DNA of 21,128 nucleotides from a virus. Positions 2 to 21,015 of the stretch are shown one piece after another. Every line of letters begins with the position of its first letter. Within the stretch, counting starts at the first letter, position 1. The DNA lies in the IMG/VR virus record IMGVR_UViG_3300025151_000372, positions 1-21,128 of that record. One strand, written 5' to 3'. Under the pieces are notes generated by a model that was given only the letters and a program-made list of their open reading frames with translations, was not told the DNA's origin and made no database searches. The position numbers were made by a program, and so were the translations under genes.

Positions 2-2584
2 GATGAGCGCCAAAGAATTCTGCAAGAAGAAGTAATAAAGGTAAGGAAATCAAGGAAGGCAGCAGACCCTAAGTTTAAAGCAAAGACAACTAAGGTCAGT
101 CCAGATACTTTCTTTAAAAAGAAGAAACCAGAGGAGCAAGCACAACCAGTTCCAGGACAGAAAGCACTTCCTGGAACTGGTAGTTCTGCCGTTGTAAAGC
201 GAGCACCAAATACAACTGCTATTGCTTCTTTCACTCCTGCGAAAGAAGATCCTGCTAAAAAAGACACGAAGGGGTTGAAGGGTGAGGATACGTTAAAGCA
301 AATTCTGGGTGGTGTTAACTCCATACTAAGAACCTTACAGGCACAAAATAAATTTACAAAGAAACAAGCAGAAAAGGATAGAAGATCTGCAGAGAGACGG
401 AAAAGAGGTGCTCAGGAAGATAAGTTAGAAGCAGCACCAATGAAAAAGTTTTTTGAAGGTGCAAAAAAACTTGCCAAACCAGCACTCAATTTCTTTGAAA
501 GTATATTTGAATTTATTAAAAACATTTTAATTGGTAGATTACTGGTTAAAATTATTGAGTGGATGGGAAATCCTGAGAATGAGAAAAAATTGAAGGCAAT
601 TATAGATTTCTTCAAAGTTACTTGGCCTGCATTCCTTGCAGTATTCTTAGCATTTAAACTTGGTCTCGGTGGATTTATCGGCAGACTGATTGGGTTGATT
701 GCCAGATCAACATTCAGACTTCTTAAATTGATCCCCAAAATGTTGAAGGGATTAAAAACTTTAGCAATGGGTAATCCAATGGCAACTGCTGCTGTTGCTG
801 TTGTTGCTACAACTGCTGTTGCTGCTGTGGCAGCAAACCAAAAAGGAACTGCTGTAGTAAAGGATCCTAAAGATCCAGATAAATCTCATGCAGATGAGAT
901 TAGAGATTTTGGTGGGATGACAGGTGCTCCCATCAGTGGTGATATGTTAGGGTTTCATGGGGGTGGTAAAATACCAGAACCCAAATATGAAGGTAATACA
1001 GGTGGCAAGGAACCAATAATATCTGATCCAGTTGCTAATGTGATGGTCCCTGGAAGTGGAAATAAAGATACTGTACCAGCAATGCTCACACCAGGTGAGA
1101 TTGTGATGTCTAAACCTGCAGTTGAGAAGTATGGTGCTGACACTCTTTTAGGTATGAACGCTGCTGCTGGTTCAACCAATATACCTAAAGTTGTGGAGGG
1201 AGTTCAGTATGCAAATCAGGGTGGAATGGTTTCTTTGACTTCTAATGGTGGAAGACCCATATCAAACAAGAGAATGGAAAAGGGGAAGACTTATAATTTT
1301 AATGATTTGATGCCACACTCCCATAATCCAAAAAGCGTCACATACCATGATGGTATAAAAATGGGTCCTGGTAGGGATTATGGTGTAGGCAAAATCCCAG
1401 ATTACATGCCGACTGGACCTAATGGAGACATCCCTACACCACAGTCAGGTAAAATACTAAGATCTGGTGATGTTGGAAATGGATATGGTAAGACTGTTGT
1501 TGTGGATGGACCTCTTGGACCAATGGGATTCCATCACTTGAGTAGAATTGGATCTGGAATAAAACAAGGTGGCACTGTCAATAAGGGTAAAATTGTTGGC
1601 GTACAGGGTGCAACAGGTGGTAATTATGCAGAACACTTGCATTTAAATGCCAGTAAAGCAGGGCATGAGGCATTTGTAAACTTTATTACTTCTGGAAAAC
1701 CAACTACTGGTGGTGGATCTGTTCCAAAAGAGGAGACCGCAGATTTCTGGGCTCTTGCTGCTATTATGTCTGTTGAAAGTGGCAACGCTCAGGGCAGAGC
1801 AGATGTTGCTCAGTCTATCATGAATAGAGCAGCATCTGGTGGTGTATATAAAGGCGGTCCCTCATTACACGGTTTAATTAATCATCCAGGACAGTATGAA
1901 CCTGTAGAAAAAGGAGATCCTAAGTTATGGAAGGCAATTAAAGACAAATCAACCGCCATTGCAGCACTTAATTCTGTTCCATATGTTGGAGGAAAAGGTT
2001 CTCAAAGAATTGAGGAGGCAGCAAAAGTCCTCAATGATAAGACTTTAATGAGTAATGCTGCTAAATTTGTCGGTCCTCGCACAGACTTCTCTACTCCAAA
2101 GGCTATGTCAGTACATAATCATAGTCGTGCCACTCATAGAGATAAAGAAGTTACTCGTCACGGTCATACCTTTGGTTTCTTTGTTGGACCTGGTGCCGTT
2201 GAACTAGGTAAAAAGCAATTTGCTTCAGGAGCAGGAGCAGCACAAGCTAATTTTGGTAATAATACTTCTTCTGGCGATCTACAAAGCGATGGTGGCGGAT
2301 CAGATAGTTCAGATGGAGAGTCAAAACCATTTGACATGGCTGCATTTAAGAAAAATCTTCGAGATAGAGGTTTATATAACAATCCTCCAAGTAGAGGGAC
2401 AACGATGTCTAGTATTATGAAAGCGCAGGCAGCAAGGTCTGGTTCAACAACATCTCCTGCTTCTAACACTGGTGGTAATCCAGCATCTAAATTAACTTCA
2501 GGTAGTAATAAATTACCAAAAATTGATGCGAATGCGATGATCTCTCAAGAGAAGATTAAAGTTCTTGGTCTGACGGTGGCGTGA
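2..2584 (+). CDS. Large tail protein with M23-like and SleB-like cell-wall domains (5' partial)
   Basis: The reading frame is open from base 2 with no stop, so this gene is cut by the window edge; 860 residues are visible and the TTG at 275 is only an internal codon. In visible numbering: a basic, low-complexity N-terminal part; a block at about 96-186 shared with the next gene (DRR, KR-rich, then KNILIGRLLV); hydrophobic helices to about 280; a DTVPAMLTPGEIVM motif near 356, typical of tape-measure and other tail proteins. An M23 peptidase-like domain lies at about 430-560, with the closing H-x-H at 545/547 in AEHLHL. A SleB/CwlJ-like hydrolase domain starts near 583, with candidate catalytic Glu592 in MSVESG, then QSIMNR and HPGQYEPV. 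The tail is Ser/Gly-rich. Probable role (inference): virion-borne protein, tape-measure-like or hub-associated, that opens peptidoglycan during DNA entry. The hydrolase folds are fairly clear; the tape-measure role is uncertain. Confidence 0.8.
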   Translation, partial: DERQRILQEEVIKVRKSRKAADPKFKAKTTKVSPDTFFKKKKPEEQAQPVPGQKALPGTGSSAVVKRAPNTTAIASFTPAKEDPAKKDTKGLKGEDTLKQILGGVNSILRTLQAQNKFTKKQAEKDRRSAERRKRGAQEDKLEAAPMKKFFEGAKKLAKPALNFFESIFEFIKNILIGRLLVKIIEWMGNPENEKKLKAIIDFFKVTWPAFLAVFLAFKLGLGGFIGRLIGLIARSTFRLLKLIPKMLKGLKTLAMGNPMATAAVAVVATTAVAAVAANQKGTAVVKDPKDPDKSHADEIRDFGGMTGAPISGDMLGFHGGGKIPEPKYEGNTGGKEPIISDPVANVMVPGSGNKDTVPAMLTPGEIVMSKPAVEKYGADTLLGMNAAAGSTNIPKVVEGVQYANQGGMVSLTSNGGRPISNKRMEKGKTYNFNDLMPHSHNPKSVTYHDGIKMGPGRDYGVGKIPDYMPTGPNGDIPTPQSGKILRSGDVGNGYGKTVVVDGPLGPMGFHHLSRIGSGIKQGGTVNKGKIVGVQGATGGNYAEHLHLNASKAGHEAFVNFITSGKPTTGGGSVPKEETADFWALAAIMSVESGNAQGRADVAQSIMNRAASGGVYKGGPSLHGLINHPGQYEPVEKGDPKLWKAIKDKSTAIAALNSVPYVGGKGSQRIEEAAKVLNDKTLMSNAAKFVGPRTDFSTPKAMSVHNHSRATHRDKEVTRHGHTFGFFVGPGAVELGKKQFASGAGAAQANFGNNTSSGDLQSDGGGSDSSDGESKPFDMAAFKKNLRDRGLYNNPPSRGTTMSSIMKAQAARSGSTTSPASNTGGNPASKLTSGSNKLPKIDANAMISQEKIKVLGLTVA

Positions 2585-2585
2585 T

Positions 2586-5501
2586 ATGTTAGGACTTTTA
2601 GCAGGAGCAGCAAAAACGGTTGGTGGTAGCATTGTAAAGAGTGCTGCTAAAGATAGAGCAAAAAGTTTTATCACTGGTAAGAAAAAGAAAGTAAAACCTG
2701 GTGCGATTAAAAAGAAAGGTGGTGATGATTCATCTCCAGGAAAAGGTGGTGCTCTTGCAGTAAGACCATCTTCTGCTCTTGTTCCTGCAGTATCATCAGT
2801 TACTCCAATTTCAGGTGCAGAAACTGCATCAACAAAATCTGGTGGGGGTGACACATTAACTCTAATAAAAGATAAAGTATTTGAGATTGATAAGGTTCTG
2901 AAAGGAACTCTAGCTCAACAAAAAGCAGCTTCTAAGGGTGATAGGAGAGGTGAGGAGAAGGCAAAACGAAAGAAGCAAGAAAACTTATTAGAGAAGATGC
3001 CTAAGATGCCAGGCAGCGGACTAGTTAAGAAACTTGCAGCACCTGCTAAAGGAGTATTTGGTGGTATATTTGATTTTCTTAAAAATATTTTATTAGGTCG
3101 TCTCCTTGTTATTCTAATTGAGAGTAGACCTAATCTACCTGGTGGTAGTATTTTAATGTTCCTTGCTGGAATGGCAGAGAAAATTATTGATTTAATTATT
3201 GGAACCATCGATGCCTTAGGTTCTTTCTTGGCATGGGGTCAAGAGAAACTTGATGGCGCTAAAGAGTGGTTAAAGGAGAATAGAGGTCCAGAGGCAGAGG
3301 AAAGATTTGAAGCTCTGCTTGGAACATTAACAGATCTATTCAATGCTGCATTTATTGTTGGTTCAATTTTTGCTGTTGGTGGTGGTTTTCCTGGTGGTAG
3401 AAAACCTGGAAAACCTGGAAAACCTGGAAAACCTGGAAAACCAACTAAACCCGTTAGTCCAAAACAGAATCTTATTGACAAGGGACGTAAGATAGGTCCA
3501 ACTGGACGTACTCCTTTAGCAGCAAAAGTTCAATTAAAGCACGGACATAACGCTGCTAATGCATGGCAAGTCAAGTATGATGATGCAATATCGAAAGGAA
3601 AGACTCCCGCCCAGGCAAGTAGAACTGCTAATGCATACGTTAAGAAACTCATTAAGAAGGGTGCTTTAAAATCAATGCCTCAGAGAGGTAATCTTGCTGG
3701 TGCAATGAAAGGGAGTAAGATTACCAAAGGTGGAATAAAGAAAGTACCAAAGAGACTTGCGACTAAAGTTCTTGGTAAAACTGGTATTAAGGCAATGAAG
3801 GGTCTTGCTAAAGGATTTGGTAAGATACCTATTGTTGGTCCTTTAATTGTTGCTGTATCCTCCTTGCTTGCAGGAGAACCAATCGGTCAAGCAGTGTTTA
3901 AAGGTATCGGTGCTGCACTTGGCGGTGCATTAGGTTCATTCATTCCAATTCCAGTCTTGGGAACCATACTTGGTGAGAGTATAGGTGTCCTTGTAGGAGA
4001 TATGATGTACTCCCTCATCATGGGTGGTGGTATTGAGGAAGCAGGTCAGAAATTCATGGACGCCCTTAAGACCGTCATGGATGTTGGTGGTCTTATTCTC
4101 AATTTCTTCAAGGAAGGATTTGGTAGATTCTTTAGTAACTTCCCAACAGTTGATGTTCCAGGATTTGCGCAGTCTCCTTTGGGAGCACTATTTCCATTCT
4201 TAGCGACTCCGGGTGCGAAGGGACTTTTGGGTGAGAAACAAGTAAAGGAGATGCCAAACCTCAGCATACTTTTCAACCCAGTTGCTATGGTTACTGAGTT
4301 GATACCTCATGCTGCAGCATCATTCTTACCTGATATTTTTGGGGCAGGTGGAACTGCCTTTGGTTCTGATACCACCGCCGAGGAGATTGATGATCCGAGT
4401 GGTTCAGATTCTGGTTCTAATAATGAAACACGATATTCAGGCAACACTAGTGGAACAGAAAATCTGATGCCTGGTTCAATTCCTTCAGTTCCTCAAACTG
4501 GAGTTGCTCCACCAATTAGTGGCAAAGGAAAAGCAATATATCTTCACTGGACTGCTGGATCTTTTACTAATACTGATGGTCCTTATCACACTGTGTTTAC
4601 GGGTGATGGAACACCGCATTACAAAGCACCTTATACAAAACAAGTAAATCATACTGAAAGTCGAAATAAGAATTCTGTTGGACTATCTCTTGCTGCTAAT
4701 CCAGAGAAAGGATGGTTCCCAACTGAAGCACAATTATCCGCAATGTCAAAAGAGGCAGCACGTATTGCCACTGGATGGGGATGGTCTGCCAGTGATATTA
4801 ACCTCAACAAGGTCATGACTCACGGTGAAGCAGGATCTAACTTGGATGGAATGGTTGCGACCACGAATTATGGAAGATTTGGAAGAGATTGGGCTGCTGG
4901 TAGTAACCAACCTGAGAAGCAGAATAAAGCAAGAGGAAGCATAGCTGATTTTGAACGTTATGATTTGGATGTTATAAGATGGAGTGGTATCAATAAACCT
5001 GATACAAAATTTGGAGCAGGTGGAGATGAAATGCGTGAGAGAATCAGCAAGGATATGCAAGTAGCAAAATCGAGTGAATCTTCATCTGAACCTTCTACAT
5101 ATAATCCTATGGATCCTGCCAATATGACTTCCGAGCAGAGATCTGCAATGGGATACTCTAAAGGTGGTCTTGTTAGAAAGAAAGGAAATTACATGTTGGC
5201 AGAACTAGGTCCTGAATTTGTTTTGGATGCTGATTCGACTCAACCAATTGAAAAAATGTTACCTGGTTTCCTTGACGCAATCAATCAGGCAAGAGGAGAT
5301 GAAGCTGTTAGTGTTCTGATGGAGTATGCATCTTATGAAAGACCATCAGAAACTGAAGTGGTAATGGCAGGACAGTCTGGGGCATCTTCTAGTGGTGGAG
5401 ATATGGGAGGAGAAGATAGTAGTCTCGCACTTCCACCATCTCTACCATCCACTCCACCGCCAAGAGATTCTTGGAAAGAGATTCGTTATAAATTTGGGTA
5501 A
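2586..5501 (+). CDS. Large tail protein with C-terminal N-acetylmuramoyl-L-alanine amidase domain
   Basis: A 971-residue protein whose ATG lies one base after the upstream stop; GGTGG at 2575-2579 may serve as ribosome site. The N-terminus is Lys-rich, and residues 89-179 repeat the block seen in the upstream gene (GDRRGEEKAKRKK, KNILLGRLLVILIE). A GKP tandem repeat lies near 273-287. Residues about 410-490 are Gly/Ala/Ile-rich and hydrophobic, like a tape-measure or membrane-active segment. An amidase_2/PGRP-like domain starts near 650: His654 in YLHWTAGS, NHTESRNKNSVGLSL, PTEAQLSAM, His746 in MTHGEAG, and an ERYDLDV ending where Asp793 could be the third zinc ligand. Near 855-895 is a GG-LVRKKGNYMLAELGPEFVLDADS segment, the 'GE-GPE-V' type found in phage tail proteins. 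It probably cleaves the MurNAc-L-Ala bond during entry. Placement in the virion is inferred from context. Confidence 0.8.
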   Translation: MLGLLAGAAKTVGGSIVKSAAKDRAKSFITGKKKKVKPGAIKKKGGDDSSPGKGGALAVRPSSALVPAVSSVTPISGAETASTKSGGGDTLTLIKDKVFEIDKVLKGTLAQQKAASKGDRRGEEKAKRKKQENLLEKMPKMPGSGLVKKLAAPAKGVFGGIFDFLKNILLGRLLVILIESRPNLPGGSILMFLAGMAEKIIDLIIGTIDALGSFLAWGQEKLDGAKEWLKENRGPEAEERFEALLGTLTDLFNAAFIVGSIFAVGGGFPGGRKPGKPGKPGKPGKPTKPVSPKQNLIDKGRKIGPTGRTPLAAKVQLKHGHNAANAWQVKYDDAISKGKTPAQASRTANAYVKKLIKKGALKSMPQRGNLAGAMKGSKITKGGIKKVPKRLATKVLGKTGIKAMKGLAKGFGKIPIVGPLIVAVSSLLAGEPIGQAVFKGIGAALGGALGSFIPIPVLGTILGESIGVLVGDMMYSLIMGGGIEEAGQKFMDALKTVMDVGGLILNFFKEGFGRFFSNFPTVDVPGFAQSPLGALFPFLATPGAKGLLGEKQVKEMPNLSILFNPVAMVTELIPHAAASFLPDIFGAGGTAFGSDTTAEEIDDPSGSDSGSNNETRYSGNTSGTENLMPGSIPSVPQTGVAPPISGKGKAIYLHWTAGSFTNTDGPYHTVFTGDGTPHYKAPYTKQVNHTESRNKNSVGLSLAANPEKGWFPTEAQLSAMSKEAARIATGWGWSASDINLNKVMTHGEAGSNLDGMVATTNYGRFGRDWAAGSNQPEKQNKARGSIADFERYDLDVIRWSGINKPDTKFGAGGDEMRERISKDMQVAKSSESSSEPSTYNPMDPANMTSEQRSAMGYSKGGLVRKKGNYMLAELGPEFVLDADSTQPIEKMLPGFLDAINQARGDEAVSVLMEYASYERPSETEVVMAGQSGASSSGGDMGGEDSSLALPPSLPSTPPPRDSWKEIRYKFG
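3402..3442 (+). repeat. 9-bp tandem repeat coding for Gly-Lys-Pro
   Basis: Four full copies of AAACCTGGA plus a partial fifth lie in frame inside the amidase-domain tail gene and encode PGKPGKPGKPGKP. The result is a short, basic, extended collagen-like linker between a hydrophobic segment and a Lys-rich region. Copy number could vary between relatives by slippage. Confidence 0.9.
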
Positions 5502-5523: not shown

Positions 5524-6852
5524 ATGTCAAAGACAACAGAAGCGAATCAAGGACAAAAGGCAGGATCAGCAAAAATTAAAACAGTTGCTGTAACTAGTAA
5601 AACTGACGAGAATCGTAGCGTAGAAATCTCCGGTGGTTTTATTGAGTTTAGATACTATGAAAGTATCTTGCAAGATGGTATAATGGGAACCTACATGTTT
5701 CAAGATGCTGGAGATGCTGTTGATGGCAAATCTGTGGTTGAAGGTTTACCTTTGACTGGCAGTGAAGTCCTTCAGTTTGCTGCTGAAGATAACTTTGAGA
5801 ATGAATTGAAAGCAACATTTATTGTAAGAAAACCATCACCGCTTTCTGATGACACAAGAAAAACAGTTGTTCATTTACCATTGGTGTCAGAAGCATTTGC
5901 AATTAACGATCAGAAAAATGTAAGGAAACTTTTTCCAAAGCAAAAAATTTCAGATCATGTCAAAACTTTAATGTCAGAGTTTTTAGAAACTGAAAAAACT
6001 TTAGACATAGAAGATACTAGCAATGATCTTAAAGAGTATGGTTTGAATAGAAAACCATATTTCATGCTGAATACTTTTGCCAAGAAAGCACAACCGTCTG
6101 GTGGTGAAGGTCAGACTGCAGGATACTTTTTCTTTGAAACCTCAGAGAAGATGATCTTTAAGTCAATTGACAGTTTCTTTGATGAGGAAAAGAATCCAAG
6201 AAAGAAATCAATTATCTATAACGAAACCAACAACAGAGAAGGACTTCCTGCAGGGTATGATTACAAGGCACTATCATATGATAAGGAGGGAGGAGATGTA
6301 GTTGAAATGGCAAAGATGGGTGCTTTTACCACAGCATCTATAACATTTGATCCAATTAACTTTAATTTCAAGAGAACTATCATATCTGCTGCCAAAGATA
6401 TTTTCACAGATGTTGATGATGCAATCGAACCTTTATCTACAGCAGCAAAAGAACTTACATCATTCAATCCAAATCTTCAGAAAGAGTTCACAAGAACTAC
6501 AATGAGTTTTATTGACACAGGAACTTTCTCTGAGAATGCTGAGGGATCAAAAGAGAAGAATTTTGATTTTGCCAATGTATATAATCAGTCGATTATGAGA
6601 TATAATCAAATGTTCGCTGCTAAAGTGAACATTATGATTGAGGCAGATTTTTCTTTACATGCTGGTGATATGATATTTTTTGATGCTCCGTCACCAAGAA
6701 AAGACACAAAGAACGATGAAGTTGACAAGCAGACTGGTGGTCTATATATTATAGCAAGTCTATGTCATTACATAACGCCGGATAGAACTCTAACAAAACT
6801 CTGTTTAATTAGAGATTCTCATGGTAGACAAGGAAACCACGCAAAAAGGTAA
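5524..6852 (+). CDS. gp27: gp27-like baseplate hub protein
   Basis: A 442-residue protein. The ATG is preceded by GAGGA at 5511-5515, a good ribosome site at normal spacing. The N-terminal part (SVEISGGFIEFRYYESI, then GIMGTYMFQDAGD, LPLTGSEVLQF and later FIVRKPSPLS) has the look of the T4 gp27 hub family, whose trimer links the tail tube to the gp5 spike. A later segment (YGLNRKPYFMLNTFAKKA, then GYFFFETSEKMIFKSID) and the C-terminal LHAGDMIFFDAP with YIIASLCHYITPDRTLTKL fit the tandem tube-like barrels of hub proteins. T4 gp27 is 391 residues, so the length is comparable. It sits just before CP12 and the gp5-like gene, the expected partner. The family call rests on pattern and context; a general tail-tube/hub fold protein is the main alternative. 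Confidence 0.7.
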   Translation: MSKTTEANQGQKAGSAKIKTVAVTSKTDENRSVEISGGFIEFRYYESILQDGIMGTYMFQDAGDAVDGKSVVEGLPLTGSEVLQFAAEDNFENELKATFIVRKPSPLSDDTRKTVVHLPLVSEAFAINDQKNVRKLFPKQKISDHVKTLMSEFLETEKTLDIEDTSNDLKEYGLNRKPYFMLNTFAKKAQPSGGEGQTAGYFFFETSEKMIFKSIDSFFDEEKNPRKKSIIYNETNNREGLPAGYDYKALSYDKEGGDVVEMAKMGAFTTASITFDPINFNFKRTIISAAKDIFTDVDDAIEPLSTAAKELTSFNPNLQKEFTRTTMSFIDTGTFSENAEGSKEKNFDFANVYNQSIMRYNQMFAAKVNIMIEADFSLHAGDMIFFDAPSPRKDTKNDEVDKQTGGLYIIASLCHYITPDRTLTKLCLIRDSHGRQGNHAKR

Positions 6853-7085: not shown

Positions 7086-9092
7086 ATGTCACAGGACGGA
7101 GGAGCACTATTTGAATCAGGTTTATTAGGATCCAGTTTTTTCTGGTGGGTCGGTCAGATTGCTGACGATTCTGTCTGGAGAGAAAATGAAATACCTGCAC
7201 CTCATGCCCAGGAAGGGGAGAACATAGGTTGGGGTAGGAGGTATAAGGTTCGTATCATGGGTCTCCATGATCAGGGTGAAACTGTAATACCTTCTAAAGA
7301 CTTGCCCTGGGCTAATGTGATGATGCCCGTAACATCGGGAGGAAATCTCACTAGGGCAGGACAATCTTCTGCCTTACGTCAAGGCAACATGGTGTTTGGT
7401 TTCTTTATGGACGGTTCGGCAATGTCCGTTCCTGTTATCATGGGTGTCATTGGAAACAATGCACAGAATCCAATGGCCGCCAAGATTGGTGATAATCGAG
7501 TCACCAATAAACAACCAGGATCCCTGGCAGTTACTGGATATGCTGATGGTCAAGTTCCTAAAGATCCTAAAACTGGAGAGAAACCACTTCCTCCTGATGG
7601 AGATTTAAAATCAGAGCATCCAAATGCAGACCCTGCTCTTGCACCTCAGCGTCCGAACGCAAAAGTTAATAAGTACGGACTTAGACCAGATCTTCCACTG
7701 AACGATGAGCAGTTCAAAGATCAACAGGCAGCAAGAATAAGAGCAGATCAATTAGGACTTAAGGGGGTTGAGAGAGGCGAGTATTTGATGAAAGCCGTTG
7801 CGGACGGCATGAAAAGAAGAGAGGCACAAAATACTTCTAACACTGCTCCATTAAAATCAAGACCAACTAGAGAAAGTCCTGACGGACAGCATATCTCTGC
7901 TGGTGATGTGAAAGAAGATGTTTTGGCAGATGAAAAAACTGTAATGCCAATCCCAGATAAACCAGTTCAATCTGCGATTAAAGCAATACAAACAATCCTT
8001 GATAATATTACTCAGAAAATGGATAAGTATCTGAATGCTATCCAGAGTTATGTTGATGCAGTATCAAGCACCGTTGGAAACCTGGAGGATATGATTTGTA
8101 AGGGTGCGATGCAGGCAGCAAAATATATGAAAGTCATCTTTGATAAGATAATGGAATTTGTTTTGAAACAACTTAATGTTGTTATGTCTAAAGTTATTGC
8201 AGCACTTCCCTCTAACTTAAGAAATCTTTTTGGAGATTTAAAAGAAAAGTTAAATGAAATGATTCTGGGATTGTATAATCAAATGATCGGCGGAATTGGG
8301 GAACAACTTTGCCAAACATTGTTAGATACTTTGCAACCACAAAAAAGAGAAGAAGAGGCGAGACAAATTGCTTCTTCTCAATCTGGTGGATCTTCTGGTG
8401 GATCTGATACTGGTCTTGGTGGTGCTGTTGGTGGTGTTGGTGGAAATGGAAAATTTAAGAGCAGACCAAAAGTTCCCATGTGTTATGCGGAGAGTGTCGC
8501 ATCTACGGTGATATCAAAAAATAAAGGTAAGATAGAAGAAGCAAACAAAAATGTTATTAGAAGTTTGAATGGATTTATAGATGGTATTCAGGGAGAAATT
8601 AATGGCGTAACCAGCGCACTATCTGCAGGACAAGAAGCGATGTCAGCAGGATTAGGAGATTCTATTGGAAATTTTGCTGCCGATGCTGCTGTTGTCACTA
8701 ATGAGATGGATGGAATGTTAAACATGATGCCAGATATTGCGAGTGGTCTTGGTGCAGCACTGGACTTCACTAATATTATTATGAATGTTTTTGCTGGTGA
8801 ACTTCCTCCTAAAGAAGCAATTAACGACTACTACCAACTTGCGGTAGGTGGATCTGGTACAAGTGCATTTGAAATACCAAGTTTGGATGGTATTGCTGAG
8901 TCCGTTCTTCAGAGTGGTGAAGCAAGAGTAGAGAGGATAACAGATCCTCCACCGGTTCCAGATTATGCATCTCCACCAAAAGATGAGCCTGACGTTGATC
9001 TTGATCGCGAAGCGATTGTTACTGATATTGATACTACGGACTTTCAACAGATGACACAAGAAGAACGAGATCAAGCATTACAGATCTATTAA
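7086..9092 (+). CDS. gp5: gp5-like baseplate hub protein with OB domain, no lysozyme
   Basis: A 668-residue protein starting two bases after the CP12 stop. Residues about 18-125 match the N-terminal OB domain of T4 gp5: FFWWVGQIADDS, RRYKVRIMGLHDQGE, IPSKDLPWANVMMPVTSG, then GNMVFGFFMDGSAMSVPVIM; T4 gp5 has WFVGVVEDR, RVRVVGLH, IPTEKLPWMSVIQPITS and VYGHFLDK at the same places. Unlike T4 gp5 there is no T4-lysozyme domain after the OB fold and no repeated V-x-G-x-x-x-x-x beta-helix at the end. Instead there is a charged linker, a long helical region (about 295-425, QSAIKAIQTILDNITQKMDK onward), a Gly/Ser-rich hinge (about 430-457), a second helical region to about 590, and an acidic Pro-rich tail. 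Role: central hub trimer bound to the gp27-like protein. The OB-domain assignment is strong; the function of the rest is unknown. Confidence 0.85.
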   Translation: MSQDGGALFESGLLGSSFFWWVGQIADDSVWRENEIPAPHAQEGENIGWGRRYKVRIMGLHDQGETVIPSKDLPWANVMMPVTSGGNLTRAGQSSALRQGNMVFGFFMDGSAMSVPVIMGVIGNNAQNPMAAKIGDNRVTNKQPGSLAVTGYADGQVPKDPKTGEKPLPPDGDLKSEHPNADPALAPQRPNAKVNKYGLRPDLPLNDEQFKDQQAARIRADQLGLKGVERGEYLMKAVADGMKRREAQNTSNTAPLKSRPTRESPDGQHISAGDVKEDVLADEKTVMPIPDKPVQSAIKAIQTILDNITQKMDKYLNAIQSYVDAVSSTVGNLEDMICKGAMQAAKYMKVIFDKIMEFVLKQLNVVMSKVIAALPSNLRNLFGDLKEKLNEMILGLYNQMIGGIGEQLCQTLLDTLQPQKREEEARQIASSQSGGSSGGSDTGLGGAVGGVGGNGKFKSRPKVPMCYAESVASTVISKNKGKIEEANKNVIRSLNGFIDGIQGEINGVTSALSAGQEAMSAGLGDSIGNFAADAAVVTNEMDGMLNMMPDIASGLGAALDFTNIIMNVFAGELPPKEAINDYYQLAVGGSGTSAFEIPSLDGIAESVLQSGEARVERITDPPPVPDYASPPKDEPDVDLDREAIVTDIDTTDFQQMTQEERDQALQIY

Positions 9093-9139: not shown

Positions 9140-12100
9140 ATGGCAGGGTCAAAGTCTGATCGTAAGAAGAATGCTAAGTTAGATATTTTTGCATCTAATA
9201 AAGATGCAAATGATTCCGTTCGTGTAGGATATATTGATCCAAAGCGTGGATATATTGATGGATTGTCGGTTTATCAGGCAAATAAACATGCTGAGAAGAA
9301 TCCAGGAACTCGATTTATATTCGTAACCCGAGATAAAATAAGATATATTAATATAAATCAGGTTAACAAATTAAAAAATTCGCACACTATACCAAAAAGT
9401 GTTGCCAAGGGTCTTGTTGATGAGAATGGAGAATTTGATCCATGTAATACGGTAAGAGGATTCAACACGAATCCAGATGGTGGAGAACCTGAAATTAAAC
9501 CAGATGACAATCTGCCATTTACTTCATCAGGAGAGTATGATGCAAAAGATAATTATAAAAGATATTTTGGGAGCAAGTCTGGTACTGGTGACGGCAAAGG
9601 TAAGCAGTGTAGAACTAGATTACTGATCCAAGGTGGTGGTGGAATCGGTGCTGTTGCAACTCCCATCATTGGTAAAGATGGATCAATACTTCATGCCAGA
9701 ATTATATCTGGTGGATTTGGATATAAATTTCCACCACAAGTTAGGATTGTAGATGACTGTAAGAGGGGTTCTGGAGCCAGAGCAATATCTCGTTTGGGTT
9801 TCCAAGGATACACCGAAGAGAATTATGATGATGCAGATGATTTTGAAGATTATGACTTCACTCTCAAGAGTGCAGGCGGAGATACTATACTTGATACTAG
9901 TGATATTGCTTGGGGGCAATTATATTCTCTCGGAAATCAAACTGTAATCGGAGAATGGAATCCTGCCAATGTTATTAGTCTTACCAATGACGACAGTTTT
10001 TCTACAAAATTACAAGAGTATCTAAGATTCTTAAAAGGTTACGATCCAAATAAACCCTGGTGGACGACCAGAGATGAGGTTGCCGTAAGAGTTGTTGGAG
10101 ATGGAACTGCTAAGAAAGCAAATAAATTAGGTGGCATCTTATATCCAGTAGAACACTGGGCTTGGGGTGGAACTAAAGAGAGAGATGATCTTTTTGTTGA
10201 TGTTGAGTTTGAAGTATATGGTCAAGGCACTTTTAGAAATAGAAATTTATTTTTCTTCTTTAAAGCAGAAGATGGATCCCATCAATTTAGAGTAAGAGGT
10301 GTCACTAATGAAGCGAGGAGTGGAAAGACAAGAAAACAGGTAATTAAAGTATTAGCAAACACCACTTATAAGGTAACTTCAAACGCTAGAAAGAGAATTG
10401 AAGGTAGCGAAAAAATGGTCCTGGAACAAGGGCTGTTGAATCAAATCGGTAGGAAAGAAAAGGAGATAGGAGGAGACAAAGCAATCGGCAAAACTTCTAA
10501 GGTTATTTTTGCTGATGTTGTTGGATCTCTAAATGACAATGATGATATTCAAGTCAGAGCTAACATCGGAAGATTTAAAGCAGGAGATAGAACGGCAGTT
10601 TCCGTAGATCCTAGTAAAAAGAAAGCTGAAAAGTTCAAAGATCAGAAGAATAGATTTAAGAGAGGAACATTTGAGCTTACATATAGAATCAATCGAAGAA
10701 ATAATATAACTTTTACTAAAGAGGTATTCCCAAGTTTCATGAATAATTATGCAGTTGCTCCGCAATTTGCATCCGATAAACTTGGAACAGATAAAGCAGA
10801 CAAACCTTATACGCTTCTCTATAGAGAATTCTTCCCACACAAAGGAGTTTACACGTTCAGAGGAGCTGCTGACAATCAGGGTGAAGTCTTCTTGGATAAC
10901 CAAAGTATCATGGATATCACTGATACTTTTAAAAATAATTCAAAAGAGAAAAAAGTAACAGTTGAAAAAGGACTTCATGATATTAGAATAGATTTATTAA
11001 ATTTTCCACAGAAAAAGATAGTTGAAAAAACTTTCACTTCAGATGGTCGTGCAGATAGGTTTAAGAAAGTAAATGTAAAGTTTAACGTTGTAGGTAGTGG
11101 AAGTGGTAGACATAGAAAAATTAAATGCATCTTTACTAATAAGGCAGATCCCACTGAAACCTTCACCATTGAAAATAATGGTGACAATAAAGAGGTTCGA
11201 GAGGTACAGAGACCAATAATTGCTAATTCAGAATATGATGTTAAGTTCATAGCAACTGCTGAAAAAAGAGAAGATGCATACAAAGAAACAACCATTCCAA
11301 TTATATTAGCAACACCAGGAACAAAAGGTAGAGGAAAGAAGGCTCGTATTGGTAAAGTTGAACGCAAAAAAATTAAATATCTAGATGAAAAAGGAGATGA
11401 TCCAAACGCACAGTTAAGTATTGACTCGACATCACCAGGACTAACTGCTAGATTTAGTGATGATGGCACCAACCTTATTACAAAAGGCAATGGCAATGTT
11501 ACCTTGAAATTTAAATGGGATGATAATCCTAAGAGTGCTGGTAAAGCAGTTGGTGAATTAACAGTTGCTGATAAAACTTTCAAACAAAAGGGTGAGAAGG
11601 GAGAGGAAAGGCAAACAGTTTATGTTGGAAGCATTAGCCCCTGCGACCCCATACCTGAACGTTCAAAGATCTTTCCGATTACCTATGATAACCTCAATCC
11701 CAATAATGATCCCATAAATGTTAGCCGTAATAGAAAGAAAATTTTCTTAAAAGACGGTGGTGATAGAGATACAAATGCCACTATTACTATTGAAAAAGTT
11801 GAGGGAGGTGTTGCCACATTTACTCCTGACGGAAGGGGTATTGATGTAAAAGGAGATTGTGATGTAACAATATCTTTTAACTGGGATGACAACCCTAATA
11901 CCAGTGGAGTTGCTCTTGATTACTTTAAAATTAACAATAAATTTTTCAGACGAAGAGGTGAATCAGATACTATAGTCCGAACGATTAATCTTAAAGGAAC
12001 TGGAAAACGCCCCAGAAGTTATGCTTCCATTATAGAACAGGGTTGTGTTGAGAACGGCACCAAGAATAAAGAAACAAGAGCAAGTTCTAGCAGAGTTTTT

Positions 12101-15100
12101 GGAGACTATCTTGGATCTGCGAATGATAATGATGACATGCAAGTCTTCGTCAAGAAGGGTGGAATTTTCACATCATCTAATAGAAGGAGAATTGACAGGC
12201 ATGGTGCGGAAGGTGGTGAAAGAGGTAGAGGTACTTTTGATTTGTCATTCAATTATGACATGAGAAAGGGAGGATTTACAAAAGATCTGTGGCAAGAACT
12301 TAAGGATCAAAATATTATTGATGCTAAGACGGGACAGGCACTTGAAAGAAGTGATCTTGAAGTAGCACAAGTATTCAATACAAAAGAATTTATTGATAAA
12401 GCAAATAGACCTCTTTACAGAATGAGACCAGGTGTTGGCCCTTATGGCGATTTCTTCAATAGAAACGGTATTACTCCATTCAATCCTCTGGAAGTGGATC
12501 CAGATATTAAGGATGTAAAACCAACAGTACCCGCACAACCAGAACCAAAGTATGAGAAACCAAAAGTAAAGTTTGTTAAGAGATCGGGAGAAACGTTTCT
12601 TAAAGTTATTGGAACTGGTAAAGCAAAGATTGGATTTAAATTAAAAACGGATGATAATTTTAAAACCTCTGGTGTATTTGCGAAAGAGGTAAAAATTCAA
12701 GCAGATGGTCCAGATGTTATCTTAAAAAGAACTGAGGAGAAAAAATTCAATGCTTCTGGAAAGAGTAGATTCCAGGGACGCGATGCTTACACTAGAAAAC
12801 TAGTAGAAGAAGAAACTATCAAAGGAGAAGGAACTTTTACAGCAGGTAAGGAATATAAAATTAAATCCATTGGAGGATCTCCAACTTCTGGATTCAAACC
12901 AGTAGATGAAACTGTTGTTTTTGATGATGACATTGGTAATGGTCTTGATGACAATGGAACACTCTCTATTAGATACGTTAGACCTATTAATCCACCAAAA
13001 CCAAAGGCACCTAAAGATCCTAAGAATGGTAAAAATCAATCATCCAAAAAATCTTTAGATAACGTTGAAGGATCAGTAAGTGATTATGCAGGAATTCATA
13101 AAATAATTTGGAAAGATATTTATTTTCCAGCATCGGGAACTTATACTGTTGACGTTCAGGTTGACGATAATGTACGTTTGGAAATTTTTAATAGAAGATT
13201 CAAAGCACAAGTATTAGATGTAAAAGGATTTAGAGGTCCAGGAAAATCTAGGGGAATGCAATCCTTCGCTATAGAAGTTCAGAAGGGAACTTATACGCTT
13301 CAAGCATTCTTGCAGCAGATTCCTGGAAAATCCATTGTTGATGGAAACCCTATGGGTCTTGCTGTTAACATCAGAACTGCATATGTTACAGTTAAGGAAG
13401 AGATCACACTTAATCAGTCTTGGAATGAAAATCCATTTGGTGTTGCATTAACAATTCATGCTCCACCACCACCAATTCCACAAGAACCACCTCTGAAACA
13501 GGATGGTCCATGTCCACCAAATCCAGTTTGGACTACCAGGCATAAGGCAAAGGATGCTCAGTGGCATCCATGCAATCATATCTATTCAAATGGTACAAAG
13601 TCTTGGAGTTCATTCATGAACCGCTATGCAATGTCCCCAGTGTTACCCATTGGAACAAAAGGTAGTGGATATAGTGGAGACTCTTGGACTAATTTGTGGG
13701 AGGCAGAGATTCCATTCACTGGATTTTATAATTTCAAGGGAACTGTTGACAATAAAGCATTTGTTACTATCTTACAAGATCCAGGGAATAGTGAAGTTAC
13801 TGAACCAAAAGTACAAGAAATTAAACAACTGGATCATTTTAATACTGAGAAAAAAGATCTTACAAGTAACAAAATTTACTTGGAAAAGGGTCAGGCTCTA
13901 ATTGGAATCACGGTTACAAATGGAGAGGTTTTCAAAACAAAATTAGTCACCAAGAAAGTTTTTAGCACTGCTGATTGGGTAGCCAAATCAGTTAGGAAGG
14001 ATAAACCCCAAAGAGTTCCTGTTGAGTTTGAAGTATACGGTCACGGCAGCAAAAAAAATATGGGATTGAAGTTTGTCTTCAAGGAGATGGGTGGAAATCA
14101 TACTTTTACGATTGATAATGTTGAAAAAAGTAGAGCAACTGAGAAAATAGAGAAGAGGGTAAAACGCAATACTGATTATAAAGTTACTGCGATTGCTACT
14201 GGATCTCATACTTTAAAAAATAAACCATCAGCTGCAAAAGAAAGAACCTACAAAATTGAAGTGGCAGATCGTGGAAGTTTAGGTAGGGGTGATAAAGCTG
14301 CAGTTAAATCTGTTTCAGATAAGGTAATTAAATTTACGGATTCGACCAGTCAAATGGATACTGATGCAGAATTCAGAATTAAATCGCCATCACCTGGATT
14401 AACTGCTAAGTTTAGGGGAAGCAATGATAACGACCTTGAATTGGTTGTTAAGGGTGATGGTGATCTTTCTCTTGAATTGTATTGGAATGATGATCCAAGG
14501 AGTAATGGAGAGTCAGTTGGTAACATTAAAGTCGCTGGTGAGACATGGAAACAAACAGCATTTAAGGATAAAGAAGACTCCATAACTAAAACCATTAAGG
14601 TCGGTGATTCAAATACTAGTTCAGGATCGGCAAGAAAGGATATCACCAAGACTTTCCCTATCAACTATAACGGATTGAATCCCAATAATAATCCCATCAA
14701 CGTTAGTGATAAAAGAAACAAAATTTTCTTAAAAGACGGTGGTGATAGAGATACAAACGCAGAGATTATTATTGAAAACGTTGACGGAGGCACTGCCAAG
14801 TTTACTCCAGATGGAAGATCTATTGAGGCAAGAGGAAATTGTTCTATAAGAATAGCTCTAGAATGGGATGACAACCCTAATACCAGTGGAGTTGCTTTAG
14901 AGAGTTTTGAGATTGGAGGTAAAGTATGGATACAAAAAAGGGAAAAGGGTGAAAAAGTTCAAACGATTACTCTTGATGCAACTCAAAAAGTCCCCGCAAC
15001 CCGCGAAGAGGTGAAACTTGTTCCAGAACAAGGTACATCAAAAGTCTTCGGTAGAGGTAAGAAGGGAACTGAAAGTCAGAAACCCGGTCAGATTATTTTT

Positions 15101-17167
15101 GCTGATATTATTGGATCTGCAAATGACAATGATGATATGCAGATTAGATGTAATGTGGGCGTTTTTACCCCGTCTAATAAGAGAAAAAAGGTAAAGGGCA
15201 CATCAGGTCAAGGAACTCAGAGAAGAAACACTTGGGATTTAACTTATCGTTATGATGATGATACTTTTTCTCCTGAAAATATCACTGAGGTTGATGGTGC
15301 AACTTATGATATTAAAGATAAAGAGACTTCTGAGATTATCACTAGTCAGATAGGTCGGAACAAGAGAAGCGTAGCACCATTAATTAAAAACCCAACCCTT
15401 ACTACGTATAAGAGAGGAACTCTGGGACCATTCTTATCACCATTCTTTGCTAAAGGAAGAAAAGAAGGTGGAGATGCTCTTCAAGGTAGAACTTGGGAGA
15501 TGGTTTGGAAAGATGTTGAATTCCCAGTAGATGGTGAGTACACTTTTAAAGCAGAAGCGGATGATATATTAGATATCGAAGTTAGTACTGAAAGTGTTAG
15601 AGTTAATGTTCCCAGAAAACCTGCAGTTCGTGAATATAAGAAAAAACTTTTGGCACTCATTGGAGATCCAAATACTGCAGAGCGTGGAATTTTCTCACAA
15701 GAGACGCAATGTTATGTTCCAGGTAAAGGTGTAAAGGAAATTGATAGATTGCTTAATGAAGCAGAGATTATTCTTGAAAATAAGAAAACAAAGGCTAAAG
15801 ATTTGAAAGATCAGGCATCTCAACTTTCAGAGGCATCAAAGTTTTTCTCCTCAGATCTTTTGGCGAGAAAAGCAGAGCAGTTGATGTCTCAGTCCATACG
15901 CTTACATAAGCGTCTCAAAGGTAAGATTGACAAACCCTTTAAAAAGGTAGAGGATCGTATCGGAAAAGCAAAAGAAATTGAGAGACAACTCAAGGCATTT
16001 GCAGATCAATACTCTCTCAGTCAAAGTGAGTTGGAAGATCTTGGTGAAGATCGCGCAGAGTTAGAATTTGTATCTATAACTGAAAGAAGACTAGTAAAAC
16101 TTGGAGATCAGGTAAATATTAGTCCTGAAAATATAAAACAAAGACTTAAATCTCTGAAAGATATTCAGGGTGACTCTAGGAAAAAGTTTATGAGAAAAAT
16201 TGATAGACTTGCCGAGAGACTTGCCAGAAGAGATACTGATGGTAAGATTAAAGGTGAGGCAACAATGAGAGATAAAAAAGTTGTCAATTATCAAAGGATA
16301 GGTCGAGCTAGGACTTTCCAGGGAGTAAAAACATTTGTAGCAACAATTAAGGCAGGAAAACGTAATGTTAAACTCACCTTACAAAATGCAAAAATACCTG
16401 GAACCACATTTAAACAAAATCCTGTGGTTGCTGCGTGTAAAATTACTTGTCAAGTTCCTGTAGAAGTTGAAGATCAAAGATCATGGTTGATTAATCCAGT
16501 TGGTGTTAGTGCTGTTCTCATATCTCCTCCTTGTAATAGAGTCATTGGTGGTATAGGTACGGTTCGTGAAATTGATATCATTGAACCAGGAAATTCACAT
16601 CCACCAGATCCACCAGACACTCCAGGTGTACCCAGTACACTTATCATCGATGACATTATTCCAGAAAAACCTGGAATTGGATACACTCCTGGAGATACTG
16701 CTACCATTATTGGCACTGGTGTTAGTTTTCCAATTACTGTAGGACCATTTGGAAAGGTTACTACTGTTGGAGTTACGACTGATATTCCTATCACAACGTA
16801 TCCAAAAATTGATATTTCCACCACTACCGGAACTGGATTTGTACCTCGTATTACAACTAAACTGATTATAGATACTCCTACTGCCGATCCAGAGGACGTT
16901 ATTCAGGTTACAGACCTTGCTGGTCTCAAGCAGAATGGATACATCGAAGGTCGTCCATATTATGGAGAGGTCTTCTTTAAGGATGGAGTTCCATTCGCTG
17001 GAAGATATGAAACTGCTGGAAGACTTATTCAAGTCTATGCTACTCTTCAAGAGAGCATCGATGGTGAAGTTACTACCAGACCTTCTGCAATTCAGAGATC
17101 TGGTACTGATGTCAACAGTAATAATCCTAGACTTAACATTCCAGGAACTCCAGATAATCTAGCTTAA
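9140..17167 (+). CDS. vrlC: Giant VrlC-like virion structural protein
   Basis: A 2675-residue protein without visible signal peptide, of the size and position expected for the VrlC-type structural proteins of T4-like cyanophages. Visible layout: a Gly-rich module near 164-205 (GGGGIGAV, ISGGFGYKFPP); VEFEVYG-type modules starting near 355, 646 and 1628; (V/S)GS-NDNDD modules near 462, 992 and 1992; SPGLTA-F modules near 765 and 1751; a LNPNN/KDGGDRDTNA/DDNPNTSGVAL module near 845-950 and again 1839-1944; four PA14-like segments (YTFRGAADN 571, YTVDVQVDD 1335, YNFKGTVDN 1530, YTFKAEADD 2134). A charged helical region lies at about 2190-2375, followed by another Gly-rich GIGYTPGD module near 2505 and a C-terminal domain with GYIEGRPYYGEVFF. 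It is probably a peripheral baseplate or fibre component; the sandwich modules suggest glycan contact, which is inference. The vrlC name is from recall of cyanophage annotation. Confidence 0.7.
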   Translation: MAGSKSDRKKNAKLDIFASNKDANDSVRVGYIDPKRGYIDGLSVYQANKHAEKNPGTRFIFVTRDKIRYININQVNKLKNSHTIPKSVAKGLVDENGEFDPCNTVRGFNTNPDGGEPEIKPDDNLPFTSSGEYDAKDNYKRYFGSKSGTGDGKGKQCRTRLLIQGGGGIGAVATPIIGKDGSILHARIISGGFGYKFPPQVRIVDDCKRGSGARAISRLGFQGYTEENYDDADDFEDYDFTLKSAGGDTILDTSDIAWGQLYSLGNQTVIGEWNPANVISLTNDDSFSTKLQEYLRFLKGYDPNKPWWTTRDEVAVRVVGDGTAKKANKLGGILYPVEHWAWGGTKERDDLFVDVEFEVYGQGTFRNRNLFFFFKAEDGSHQFRVRGVTNEARSGKTRKQVIKVLANTTYKVTSNARKRIEGSEKMVLEQGLLNQIGRKEKEIGGDKAIGKTSKVIFADVVGSLNDNDDIQVRANIGRFKAGDRTAVSVDPSKKKAEKFKDQKNRFKRGTFELTYRINRRNNITFTKEVFPSFMNNYAVAPQFASDKLGTDKADKPYTLLYREFFPHKGVYTFRGAADNQGEVFLDNQSIMDITDTFKNNSKEKKVTVEKGLHDIRIDLLNFPQKKIVEKTFTSDGRADRFKKVNVKFNVVGSGSGRHRKIKCIFTNKADPTETFTIENNGDNKEVREVQRPIIANSEYDVKFIATAEKREDAYKETTIPIILATPGTKGRGKKARIGKVERKKIKYLDEKGDDPNAQLSIDSTSPGLTARFSDDGTNLITKGNGNVTLKFKWDDNPKSAGKAVGELTVADKTFKQKGEKGEERQTVYVGSISPCDPIPERSKIFPITYDNLNPNNDPINVSRNRKKIFLKDGGDRDTNATITIEKVEGGVATFTPDGRGIDVKGDCDVTISFNWDDNPNTSGVALDYFKINNKFFRRRGESDTIVRTINLKGTGKRPRSYASIIEQGCVENGTKNKETRASSSRVFGDYLGSANDNDDMQVFVKKGGIFTSSNRRRIDRHGAEGGERGRGTFDLSFNYDMRKGGFTKDLWQELKDQNIIDAKTGQALERSDLEVAQVFNTKEFIDKANRPLYRMRPGVGPYGDFFNRNGITPFNPLEVDPDIKDVKPTVPAQPEPKYEKPKVKFVKRSGETFLKVIGTGKAKIGFKLKTDDNFKTSGVFAKEVKIQADGPDVILKRTEEKKFNASGKSRFQGRDAYTRKLVEEETIKGEGTFTAGKEYKIKSIGGSPTSGFKPVDETVVFDDDIGNGLDDNGTLSIRYVRPINPPKPKAPKDPKNGKNQSSKKSLDNVEGSVSDYAGIHKIIWKDIYFPASGTYTVDVQVDDNVRLEIFNRRFKAQVLDVKGFRGPGKSRGMQSFAIEVQKGTYTLQAFLQQIPGKSIVDGNPMGLAVNIRTAYVTVKEEITLNQSWNENPFGVALTIHAPPPPIPQEPPLKQDGPCPPNPVWTTRHKAKDAQWHPCNHIYSNGTKSWSSFMNRYAMSPVLPIGTKGSGYSGDSWTNLWEAEIPFTGFYNFKGTVDNKAFVTILQDPGNSEVTEPKVQEIKQLDHFNTEKKDLTSNKIYLEKGQALIGITVTNGEVFKTKLVTKKVFSTADWVAKSVRKDKPQRVPVEFEVYGHGSKKNMGLKFVFKEMGGNHTFTIDNVEKSRATEKIEKRVKRNTDYKVTAIATGSHTLKNKPSAAKERTYKIEVADRGSLGRGDKAAVKSVSDKVIKFTDSTSQMDTDAEFRIKSPSPGLTAKFRGSNDNDLELVVKGDGDLSLELYWNDDPRSNGESVGNIKVAGETWKQTAFKDKEDSITKTIKVGDSNTSSGSARKDITKTFPINYNGLNPNNNPINVSDKRNKIFLKDGGDRDTNAEIIIENVDGGTAKFTPDGRSIEARGNCSIRIALEWDDNPNTSGVALESFEIGGKVWIQKREKGEKVQTITLDATQKVPATREEVKLVPEQGTSKVFGRGKKGTESQKPGQIIFADIIGSANDNDDMQIRCNVGVFTPSNKRKKVKGTSGQGTQRRNTWDLTYRYDDDTFSPENITEVDGATYDIKDKETSEIITSQIGRNKRSVAPLIKNPTLTTYKRGTLGPFLSPFFAKGRKEGGDALQGRTWEMVWKDVEFPVDGEYTFKAEADDILDIEVSTESVRVNVPRKPAVREYKKKLLALIGDPNTAERGIFSQETQCYVPGKGVKEIDRLLNEAEIILENKKTKAKDLKDQASQLSEASKFFSSDLLARKAEQLMSQSIRLHKRLKGKIDKPFKKVEDRIGKAKEIERQLKAFADQYSLSQSELEDLGEDRAELEFVSITERRLVKLGDQVNISPENIKQRLKSLKDIQGDSRKKFMRKIDRLAERLARRDTDGKIKGEATMRDKKVVNYQRIGRARTFQGVKTFVATIKAGKRNVKLTLQNAKIPGTTFKQNPVVAACKITCQVPVEVEDQRSWLINPVGVSAVLISPPCNRVIGGIGTVREIDIIEPGNSHPPDPPDTPGVPSTLIIDDIIPEKPGIGYTPGDTATIIGTGVSFPITVGPFGKVTTVGVTTDIPITTYPKIDISTTTGTGFVPRITTKLIIDTPTADPEDVIQVTDLAGLKQNGYIEGRPYYGEVFFKDGVPFAGRYETAGRLIQVYATLQESIDGEVTTRPSAIQRSGTDVNSNNPRLNIPGTPDNLA
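11738..11775 (+). repeat. 38-bp exact direct repeat, copy 1 (inside vrlC-like gene)
   Basis: Identical to 14720-14757, exactly 2982 bp (994 codons) downstream. It encodes KIFLKDGGDRDTN. Together with the 33-bp repeat at the same offset it marks a recent or strongly conserved internal duplication. Confidence 0.95.
11882..11914 (+). repeat. 33-bp exact direct repeat, copy 1 (inside vrlC-like gene)
   Basis: Identical to 14864-14896, at the same 2982-bp offset as the 38-bp repeat. It encodes WDDNPNTSGVA. Confidence 0.95.
14720..14757 (+). repeat. 38-bp exact direct repeat, copy 2 (inside vrlC-like gene)
   Basis: Second copy of 11738-11775. The flanking coding sequence is clearly related but diverged at the nucleotide level, so the identical core stands out. 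Confidence 0.95.
14864..14896 (+). repeat. 33-bp exact direct repeat, copy 2 (inside vrlC-like gene)
   Basis: Second copy of 11882-11914, in the same frame and order relative to the 38-bp repeat. Confidence 0.95.
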
Positions 17168-20922: not shown

Positions 20923-20928
20923 TTTCTT

Positions 20929-21013
20929 GGGAGCGTGGCGGAATCGGTAGACGCACCAGACTTAAAATCTGTTGACCGTTAAGGTCGTGGGGGTTCAAGT
21001 CCCCCCGCTCCTA
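20929..21013 (+). tRNA. tRNA-Leu (anticodon UAA)
   Basis: All arms are visible: acceptor GGGAGCG (20929-20935) with CGCTCCT (21006-21012; the first pair is G-U), discriminator A at 21013, anticodon loop CTTAAAA with UAA at 20963-20965, a long variable arm GACC/GGTC typical of class II tRNAs, and a GGGGG/CCCCC T stem with TTCAAGT loop. CCA is not encoded. The outermost anticodon-stem pair is C-T. It reads UUA and probably UUG; UUA is frequent in the phage genes here, which would explain why the phage carries it. Confidence 0.95.
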
Positions 21014-21015
21014 TT

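Follow-up and report, generated by a model that had tools for sequence, protein, structure and literature searches.

A family-wide pair of putative tape-measure-type tail proteins with wall-hydrolase domains in T4-like cyanophages

Introduction

Bacteriophage T4 has, to our knowledge, one tape measure, and we know of no hydrolase carried on it. In the T4 genome, gp51 is followed by 27, 28 and 29. The lysozyme family matches two T4 reading frames, one of 579 residues (with the match at 78505-78888) and one of 181 residues, which we take to be gp5 and gene e, respectively. In the mycobacteriophage TM4, according to the available part of the report, the tape measure contains a peptidoglycan-hydrolase motif, mt3, which helps entry and is not essential for viability (PMC1796659).

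Tape measures carrying wall hydrolases are already known. For T4-like cyanophages, which are abundant ocean viruses, no agreed assignment of the tape measure and the entry enzymes was found in the literature searched, nor was a description of a modular, family-wide protein pair of the kind considered here. Subscription papers lying outside the search, the pair was not found described as tape measures in the available parts of the papers covered (PMC9602691, PMC3037559, PMC10665884, PMC10436341, PMC9964418, PMC7472177, PMC8557907, PMC1796659, PMC12596118, PMC9146016).

Gene layout of the locus

The stretch of DNA analysed, called the window below, comprises 21.1 kb (21,128 nucleotides; IMG/VR virus record IMGVR_UViG_3300025151_000372, positions 1 to 21,128). 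Its source is a T4-like marine cyanophage, Kyanoviridae-like. The DNA matches Synechococcus and Prochlorococcus phages and cyanophages only (240 records), and the nearest gene orders are found in Kyanoviridae, e.g., Bellamy, S-SM2 and SynMITS9220M01. Two long ORFs, A and B, are separated by a single base, and the contig start cuts A, which has 860 residues in the window and 907 in a near-identical relative (L021). The features are as follows.

2..2584, + strand: ORF A, 860 residues, 5'-truncated; N-block, hydrophobic helices, tape-measure-like motif, M23 and SleB-like domains
278..562, + strand: N-block of A, residues 93-187; part of one long predicted helix (97-187)
596..703, + strand: hydrophobic stretch 1 of A, residues 199-234 (Kyte-Doolittle, 19-residue windows)
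776-838, + strand: hydrophobic stretch 2 of A, residues 259-279 (Kyte-Doolittle, 19-residue windows)
1049..1123, + strand: tape-measure-type motif of A, PGSGNKDTVPAMLTPGEIVMSKPAV, residues 350-374
1424..1666, + strand: Peptidase_M23 domain of A, residues 475-555 (Pfam E=8.7e-9; PDB M23 peptidases)
1787..2101, + strand: Hydrolase_2 / SleB-like domain of A, residues 596-700 (Pfam E=1.3e-4, below cut-off)
2586..5501, + strand: ORF B, 971 residues; N-block, helical and hydrophobic core, Amidase_2
2841..3122, + strand: N-block of B, residues 86-179; predicted helices 90-136 and 157-180
3513..3665, + strand: small helical domain of B, residues 310-360; the most reliably modelled region (pLDDT ~84-92 at 311-360)
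3813..3998, + strand: glycine-rich hydrophobic core of B, residues 410-471 (Kyte-Doolittle hydrophobicity)
4530..4826, + strand: Amidase_2 domain of B, residues 649-747 (Pfam E=8e-5, below cut-off; phrog_2588 5.6e-37)
5524..6852, + strand: conserved tail protein after B (phrog_350; T4-GC15 in annotations); gp27-type hub protein by position only
7086..9092, + strand: gp5-like hub spike; Gp5_OB domain, without lysozyme domain

Other genes of the window are noted here for completeness. The protein at 9140-17167 has 2675 residues and is probably a tail fibre or spike; it contains a single PA14 domain (residues 565-626, E=1.8e-8), and BLASTP at E<=1e-5 shows no internal repeat. The 208-residue protein at 17191-17817 has a sub-threshold DUF2345 match (24.5 bits vs 30.7). 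A second tandem paralogue pair is seen at 17820-18617 and 18617-19315 (41.5% identity over 200 residues, E=2e-43), both members of which are matched by phrog_17490 and phrog_28536. Behind the tail gene cluster, a tRNA-Leu (taa) is located at 20928-21014; relatives have tRNAs in similar places.

The N-terminal block shared by A and B

The original prediction, made from the sequence of the window, placed a common N-terminal block at 287-559 and again at 2850-3122, and it is found at both places. In BLASTP, residues 52-186 of A (155-559) align with residues 46-179 of B (2721-3122) at 38% identity, with E=1.3e-15 under composition adjustment and E=2.5e-14 with low-complexity masking; the common block spans ~95 residues. 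The Smith-Waterman score is 180, compared with a maximum of 73 in 2000 full shuffles and of 116 in 2000 shuffles within 20-residue blocks, where the local Lys-rich make-up is kept. The profile-profile alignment proposed at the outset, with six A blocks against six B blocks, gives a probability of 99.4% (E=7e-22), while 60 locally column-shuffled controls reach at most 22.5% and a reversed control 8%. Thus, the concern that the blocks might align no better than shuffled Lys-rich sequence can be set aside.

Structure prediction of both proteins, also proposed at the outset, was only partly informative: the N-blocks are predicted to be helical, but the models are poor overall (mean pLDDT 40 and 46), with some confidence only for the N-block helix and residues 310-360 of B. 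In A, AlphaFold predicts a long helix at 97-187 (block pLDDT up to ~82), and in B a helix at 90-136 (up to ~79). The alignments behind the models, 23 and 26 sequences, are too shallow. Foldseek fold searches with both models returned nothing at E<=0.001, as might be expected from models of this quality. A search of solved structures gave nothing convincing for the N-block (two matches at E ~0.5), and no match for the tail protein or for B. The small helical domain of B at 310-360 is confidently predicted; the Foldseek matches are only weak, e.g., to EF-Ts (E=4, probability 0.89, 36 columns), the position of which within B may differ.

In an unrooted tree of the N-blocks (97 columns), the A and B labels cluster: eight label changes are required, compared with a mean of ~32 after shuffling, and 0 of 500 shuffles were as low. 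This suggests that the duplication is old. A simple, single ancient split of A from B receives no clean support, since at least three of the eight label changes are forced by supported branches of this 97-column tree. Blocks of A and B from the same genome share an identity of 0.292, compared with 0.236 +/- 0.006 for random pairing (0 of 5000 permutations; 45 genomes kept of 62), and the excess is small among close relatives (34 genomes, 21 positive, p=0.04). Such a likeness could stem from events within lineages (re-duplication or gene conversion) or from co-adaptation; in the wider scenario discussed below, the N-blocks might bind each other or one shared partner.

Conservation of the pair among relatives

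The tail protein is present in 110 of the loci fetched from phage records and IMG/VR (counts include overlapping copies of a single contig). A long ORF, B, is located directly upstream in 104 of these and is lacking in six, and both A and B precede the same tail gene in 96. Annotated relatives have the gene order gp26, gp51, A, B, tail gene, gp5. Eight loci have B and lack A; in seven, the contig end cuts B itself, while the eighth (L042) has 721 bases upstream of B, with no long ORF called there. The pair is, thus, family-wide among T4-like cyanophage relatives and no local oddity. The predicted duplication of an N-terminal part stands as far as the single duplicated part is concerned, but it is old and family-wide (96/110 loci) rather than local.

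A model of the N-block, seeded with A of the window and iterated, recovers 69 of the 80 distinct A proteins and 72 of the 83 distinct B proteins. Truncation at the 5' end affects five of the 11 A and six of the 11 B proteins that it misses. The complete proteins missed are A of Syn33, A of S-CAM7 and B of ACG-2014f, and both A and B are missed in S-PRM1, S-CAM9, S-SSM7 and S-CREM2. The 31 further matches, compared with a set that consisted of A and B proteins only, align to members of this set at E<=1.5e-18, and there was no match among 353 other ORFs.

An exception is encountered in S-CRM01, where the slot is occupied by a single protein of 864 residues. It has a lysozyme, an M15-like stretch and the motif, and its N-block is weak. 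In S-B43, only a fragment of the tail gene is present (L018:8001-8393) and an A-like match lies far off on the other strand (record 165580-166680); this layout is either a rearrangement or an assembly artefact.

Wall-hydrolase domains and their exchange

An M23-like and a SleB-like domain had been predicted for the first protein and an amidase_2-like domain for the second; all three were matched in Pfam, two of them below the cut-off. The M23 domain in A (E=8.7e-9) is above the Pfam cut-off, while Hydrolase_2 (SleB-like) in A reaches 23.0 bits against a cut-off of 27 (E=1.3e-4), and Amidase_2 in B reaches 23.4 bits against 26 (E=8e-5). Relatives back both sub-threshold calls, as do the matches of phrog_2588 to residues 647-834 of B (5.6e-37) and 567-790 of A (2e-10). 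The amidase motifs LHWTAG and THGEAG are kept in B of the window. In the M23 domain, a putative enzyme, HLS and HLH are kept and the first zinc histidine is not at the canonical place; a search for a substitute ligand gave only a His cluster ~20 residues upstream, which is common to homologues.

The enzyme survey covered 57 A proteins and 59 B proteins that share less than 80% identity with one another (Pfam, E<=0.001), with counts referring to families, so that one protein may count twice. The A slot contains M23 (8), Hydrolase_2 (6), Phage_lysozyme2 (2), GH19 (2), glucosaminidase (2), Phage_lysozyme (1), SLT (1) and M15_3 (1). The more frequent families in the B slot are Phage_lysozyme (5), M23 (5), Amidase_2 (5), Hydrolase_2 (4) and Phage_lysozyme2 (3), and GH19, C39_2, VanY, Amidase_3, Amidase_5 and CHAP occur once each. 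At least ten hydrolase families are found over both slots, and many of the surveyed A and B proteins have no hydrolase family by Pfam. Gly-zipper_Omp is present in three of 59 B proteins. An M15-like signature was found in 10/83 B and 0/80 A proteins, with no match in one shuffled copy of each set.

The SleB type of the window A is also found in B of L084, the M23 type of the window A in B of S-SRM01 and ACG-2014f, and the B protein of Syn33 combines amidase and SleB. Enzymes are, by such comparisons, swapped in and out of both slots. Of the predicted fitting of three different peptidoglycan activities, the three hydrolase domains downstream of the block are seen, but they are exchangeable cargo of both slots and not the result of a one-off fitting. 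In P-SSM2, S-PRM1 and S-SSM7, no enzyme was recognised by Pfam in A or B and the slot is still kept, so that the enzyme is optional and not the constant function. A docking peptide conserved at the C-terminus of all A or all B proteins was not found, the best end positions reaching 45% in A and 57% in B.

The hydrolase families concerned cut glycan, peptide or amide bonds. Judged by domain family, a glycan cutter is combined with a peptide or amide cutter in the window, in S-SCSM1 (glucosaminidase and VanY), in ACG-2014f (lysozyme and M23) and in Syn33 (amidase and SleB).

Tape-measure features and tail length

A tape-measure-type motif, GSG..DTVPAMLTPGEFVMS, is present in 55 of 80 A proteins and in one of 83 B proteins; a sequence relation to tape-measure families is seen for A but not for B. 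When the motif segment of the window is compared with PHROGs, all matches with a named function are tape measures (3/3 at E<=0.01, 8/8 at E<=1). The S-SM2 segment behaves similarly (9/9 at E<=0.01, 14/15 at E<=1), and that of S-CREM2 matches one endolysin family only. In 17 genomes (16 cyanophages and T4), the tape-measure family phrog_3547 has five matches, all inside A and spread over 5/16 cyanophage genomes. Another tape-measure family, phrog_1272, was discarded as evidence because it is unspecific, also matching gp5 regions and 10/14 control genomes.

Hydrophobic stretches (Kyte-Doolittle, 19-residue windows) are found in 63/80 A and 59/83 B proteins, compared with 60/384 other ORFs. In RefSeq, B of S-SCSM1 is entered as 'tail length tape measure protein'. 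Virion anchoring, as originally suggested for the N-block, is a hypothetical role of a block that is predicted to be helical; the slot position, the motif and the hydrophobic stretches together point to a tape-measure/pilot-type protein inside the tail.

Some A proteins have two copies of the motif (L022:4576-7194, L104:1766-4174, L113:1835-4048). In S-CREM2 (L020:6484-15555), A has long Ser/Thr/Asn-rich stretches, B has many QQSMGSV-type repeats, and a motif region is seen in both proteins (A 370-440, B 1311-1390).

Tail lengths of nine phages were taken from the available parts of published descriptions (PMC10665884, PMC7472177, PMC9964418, PMC10436341, PMC9602691, PMC9146016, PMC8557907).

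S-CRM01: 864 aa (single protein); tail 140-170 nm
S-N03: A/B 933/722 aa; tail 138 nm
S-H34: A/B 943/735 aa; tail 129 nm
S-CREM1: A/B 1016/991 aa; tail 165 nm
MS29: A/B 932/990 aa; tail 124 nm
S-SCSM1: A/B 950/1131 aa; tail 173 nm
S-SZBM1: A/B 893/780 aa; tail 114 nm (larger of two printed values)
S-SRM01: A/B 536/636 aa; sheath ~100 nm
S-CREM2: A/B 1565/1456 aa; tail 418 nm

In this post hoc comparison of values from different laboratories, which lends the ruler role weak support, the length of the longer of A and B correlates with tail length (r=0.92; 0.76 without S-CREM2, p=0.03). The strongest point is S-CREM2, where the extra protein length comes from low-complexity repeats. The total length of A and B was rejected as a ruler (r=0.33 without S-CREM2). 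It is likely that A or B is the tail-length ruler, and A would be the better candidate for setting tail length.

Presence in virions

A and B were both found by MS in virions of S-SCSM1 (PMC9602691). In S-CREM2 virions, A and B gave 73 and 71 unique peptides, compared with 53 for the portal and 25 for the gp27-position protein (PMC10665884). The published virion list of S-SZBM1 contains the adjacent tail protein (65) and not A and B (67, 66). The expectation that these are virion proteins is in line with the data on S-SCSM1 and S-CREM2 and not with the S-SZBM1 list. In the accessible text, the S-SCSM1 authors regard the proteins as non-structural and allow for carry-over after CsCl purification (PMC9602691), and the S-CREM2 authors regard them as non-structural endolysins, perhaps packed in the capsid (PMC10665884). 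The S-CREM2 list also includes a CRISPR-Cas9 nuclease (ORF12) with 28 unique peptides, according to the same source.

Counterparts of T4 hub proteins

Profiles of T4 gp29 (phrog_1283) and gp28 (phrog_1140) match 0 of 14 cyanophage genomes, and the T4 control was matched. Direct similarity of A or B to T4 gp27, gp28 or gp29 was rejected by profile comparison. A and B come after gp51, as 27, 28 and 29 do in T4. A lysozyme domain was found in none of ten cyanophage gp5 proteins, window included, and Gp5_OB in seven of the ten; records and PHROGs label cyanophage gp5 'tail lysozyme'. In 16 cyanophage genomes, the lysozyme family has eight matches, none of them in gp5: four are in the A/B slot (ACG-2014f, S-ShM2, S-CREM2, S-CRM01), and the other four are ORFs of 158-418 residues elsewhere in the genome (4/16 genomes). 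Given that gp5 is without a lysozyme domain and that lysozyme matches occur in the A/B slot, the entry hydrolase is most simply sought on A and B.

Proposed role and alternative explanations

We consider it fairly probable that A and B belong to the virions of T4-like cyanophages as proteins of the tape-measure/pilot type, with exchangeable hydrolase cassettes that do the job of the T4 gp5 lysozyme. Their slot is bounded by gp51 on one side and the gp27-position tail gene on the other, and the genomes concerned have no recognisable gp28 or gp29; each protein would have a helical N-block, membrane-like hydrophobic stretches and a hydrolase cassette in the C-terminal half. Both would reside in the tail tube or hub, with the N-blocks in a similar place. 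Upon contraction, they may exit through the hub ahead of the DNA, and the hydrolases would then cut the wall locally (in the window, presumably peptide, glycan and amide bonds), while the hydrophobic stretches may assist the DNA across the inner membrane. The cassettes would, in this sense, be the counterpart of the lysozyme domain in T4 gp5. Overall, the pair is probably located within the tail and serves to open the wall of the host during entry.

The rival that deserves most attention, though we judge it unlikely, is a role as virion-associated lysins in the baseplate hub, where A and B would be neighbours of gp5 and the gp27-position protein; they would then be outside the tube and no tape measures, with another protein setting the tail length. 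The enzyme domains, the location among hub genes, a gp5 without its lysozyme and the lack of gp29 similarity in A and B all agree with such lysins. The tape-measure motif and family matches (in A only) and the hydrophobic stretches of both proteins do not, nor do the enzyme-less members (P-SSM2, S-PRM1, S-SSM7) that keep the slot. Endolysins or free lysis enzymes, made late and contaminating virions, are considerably more doubtful. Several database records do annotate endolysin or lysozyme, and carry-over is allowed by the S-SCSM1 authors in the available text (PMC9602691). However, contaminants would hardly be expected to exceed the portal and the gp27-position protein in S-CREM2 peptides (PMC10665884, as far as available), to have a long helical/hydrophobic front half or to keep a fixed place between hub genes, and separate, shorter Phage_lysozyme frames are found elsewhere in 4/16 cyanophage genomes.

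A further objection concerns the duplication itself. The N-block is Lys/Glu-rich and predicted to be helical, as would be a convergent Lys-rich coiled coil that arose without duplication. This origin can be given hardly any credence: conserved positions are present in both the A and the B sets, with seven invariant among ten sequences, local shuffles and shuffled profiles fall far short, and the model seeded with A collects A/B proteins or fragments and 0/353 other ORFs.

Returning to the tape-measure/pilot-type reading, it is tempting to speculate that T4-like cyanophages have replaced T4 gp28, gp29 and the gp5 lysozyme with two tape-measure-type paralogues that evolve together. The C-terminal halves would be an open docking slot in which at least ten enzyme families have been exchanged, each phage combining glycan, peptide and amide cutters in its own way to suit its host, and S-CRM01 would be a fused or unduplicated form. 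This wider scenario is held tentatively, with slightly less than even confidence.

The tape-measure/pilot-type reading would supply candidates for both the tape measure and the entry enzymes, and would explain in what way the 'tail lysozyme' annotations of gp5 in these cyanophages mislead. Proteins filed as endolysins would be re-read as entry proteins. It also predicts a modular wall-cutting slot, which could track host wall chemistry and host range.

Comparison with known systems

By gene order, ORF208/209 of S-CREM2 and ORF213/214 of S-SCSM1 ('endolysins') are members of the same pair. Their authors describe virion-associated enzymes without a structural role; in the parts of those reports that are available, there is no discussion of the pair, of its common block or of the slot. 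T4 gp29 (the tape measure) and gp28 are, like A and B, placed in the hub gene cluster near gp51/gp27, but there is no detectable sequence relation between them and A or B. The TM4 tape measure, from what is accessible of its description (PMC1796659), resembles the proposed reading of A and B in being a tape measure that carries a wall hydrolase. TM4, however, is a siphovirus with one protein and one small motif, whereas A and B would be a pair of paralogues in a contractile tail of the T4 type, each with large domains that can be exchanged. The likely role of A and B, i.e., local wall cutting at entry, is that of the T4 gp5 tail lysozyme. The T4 spike itself includes the lysozyme, while in the cyanophages examined gp5 is without a lysozyme domain and the putative enzymes are located on A and B.
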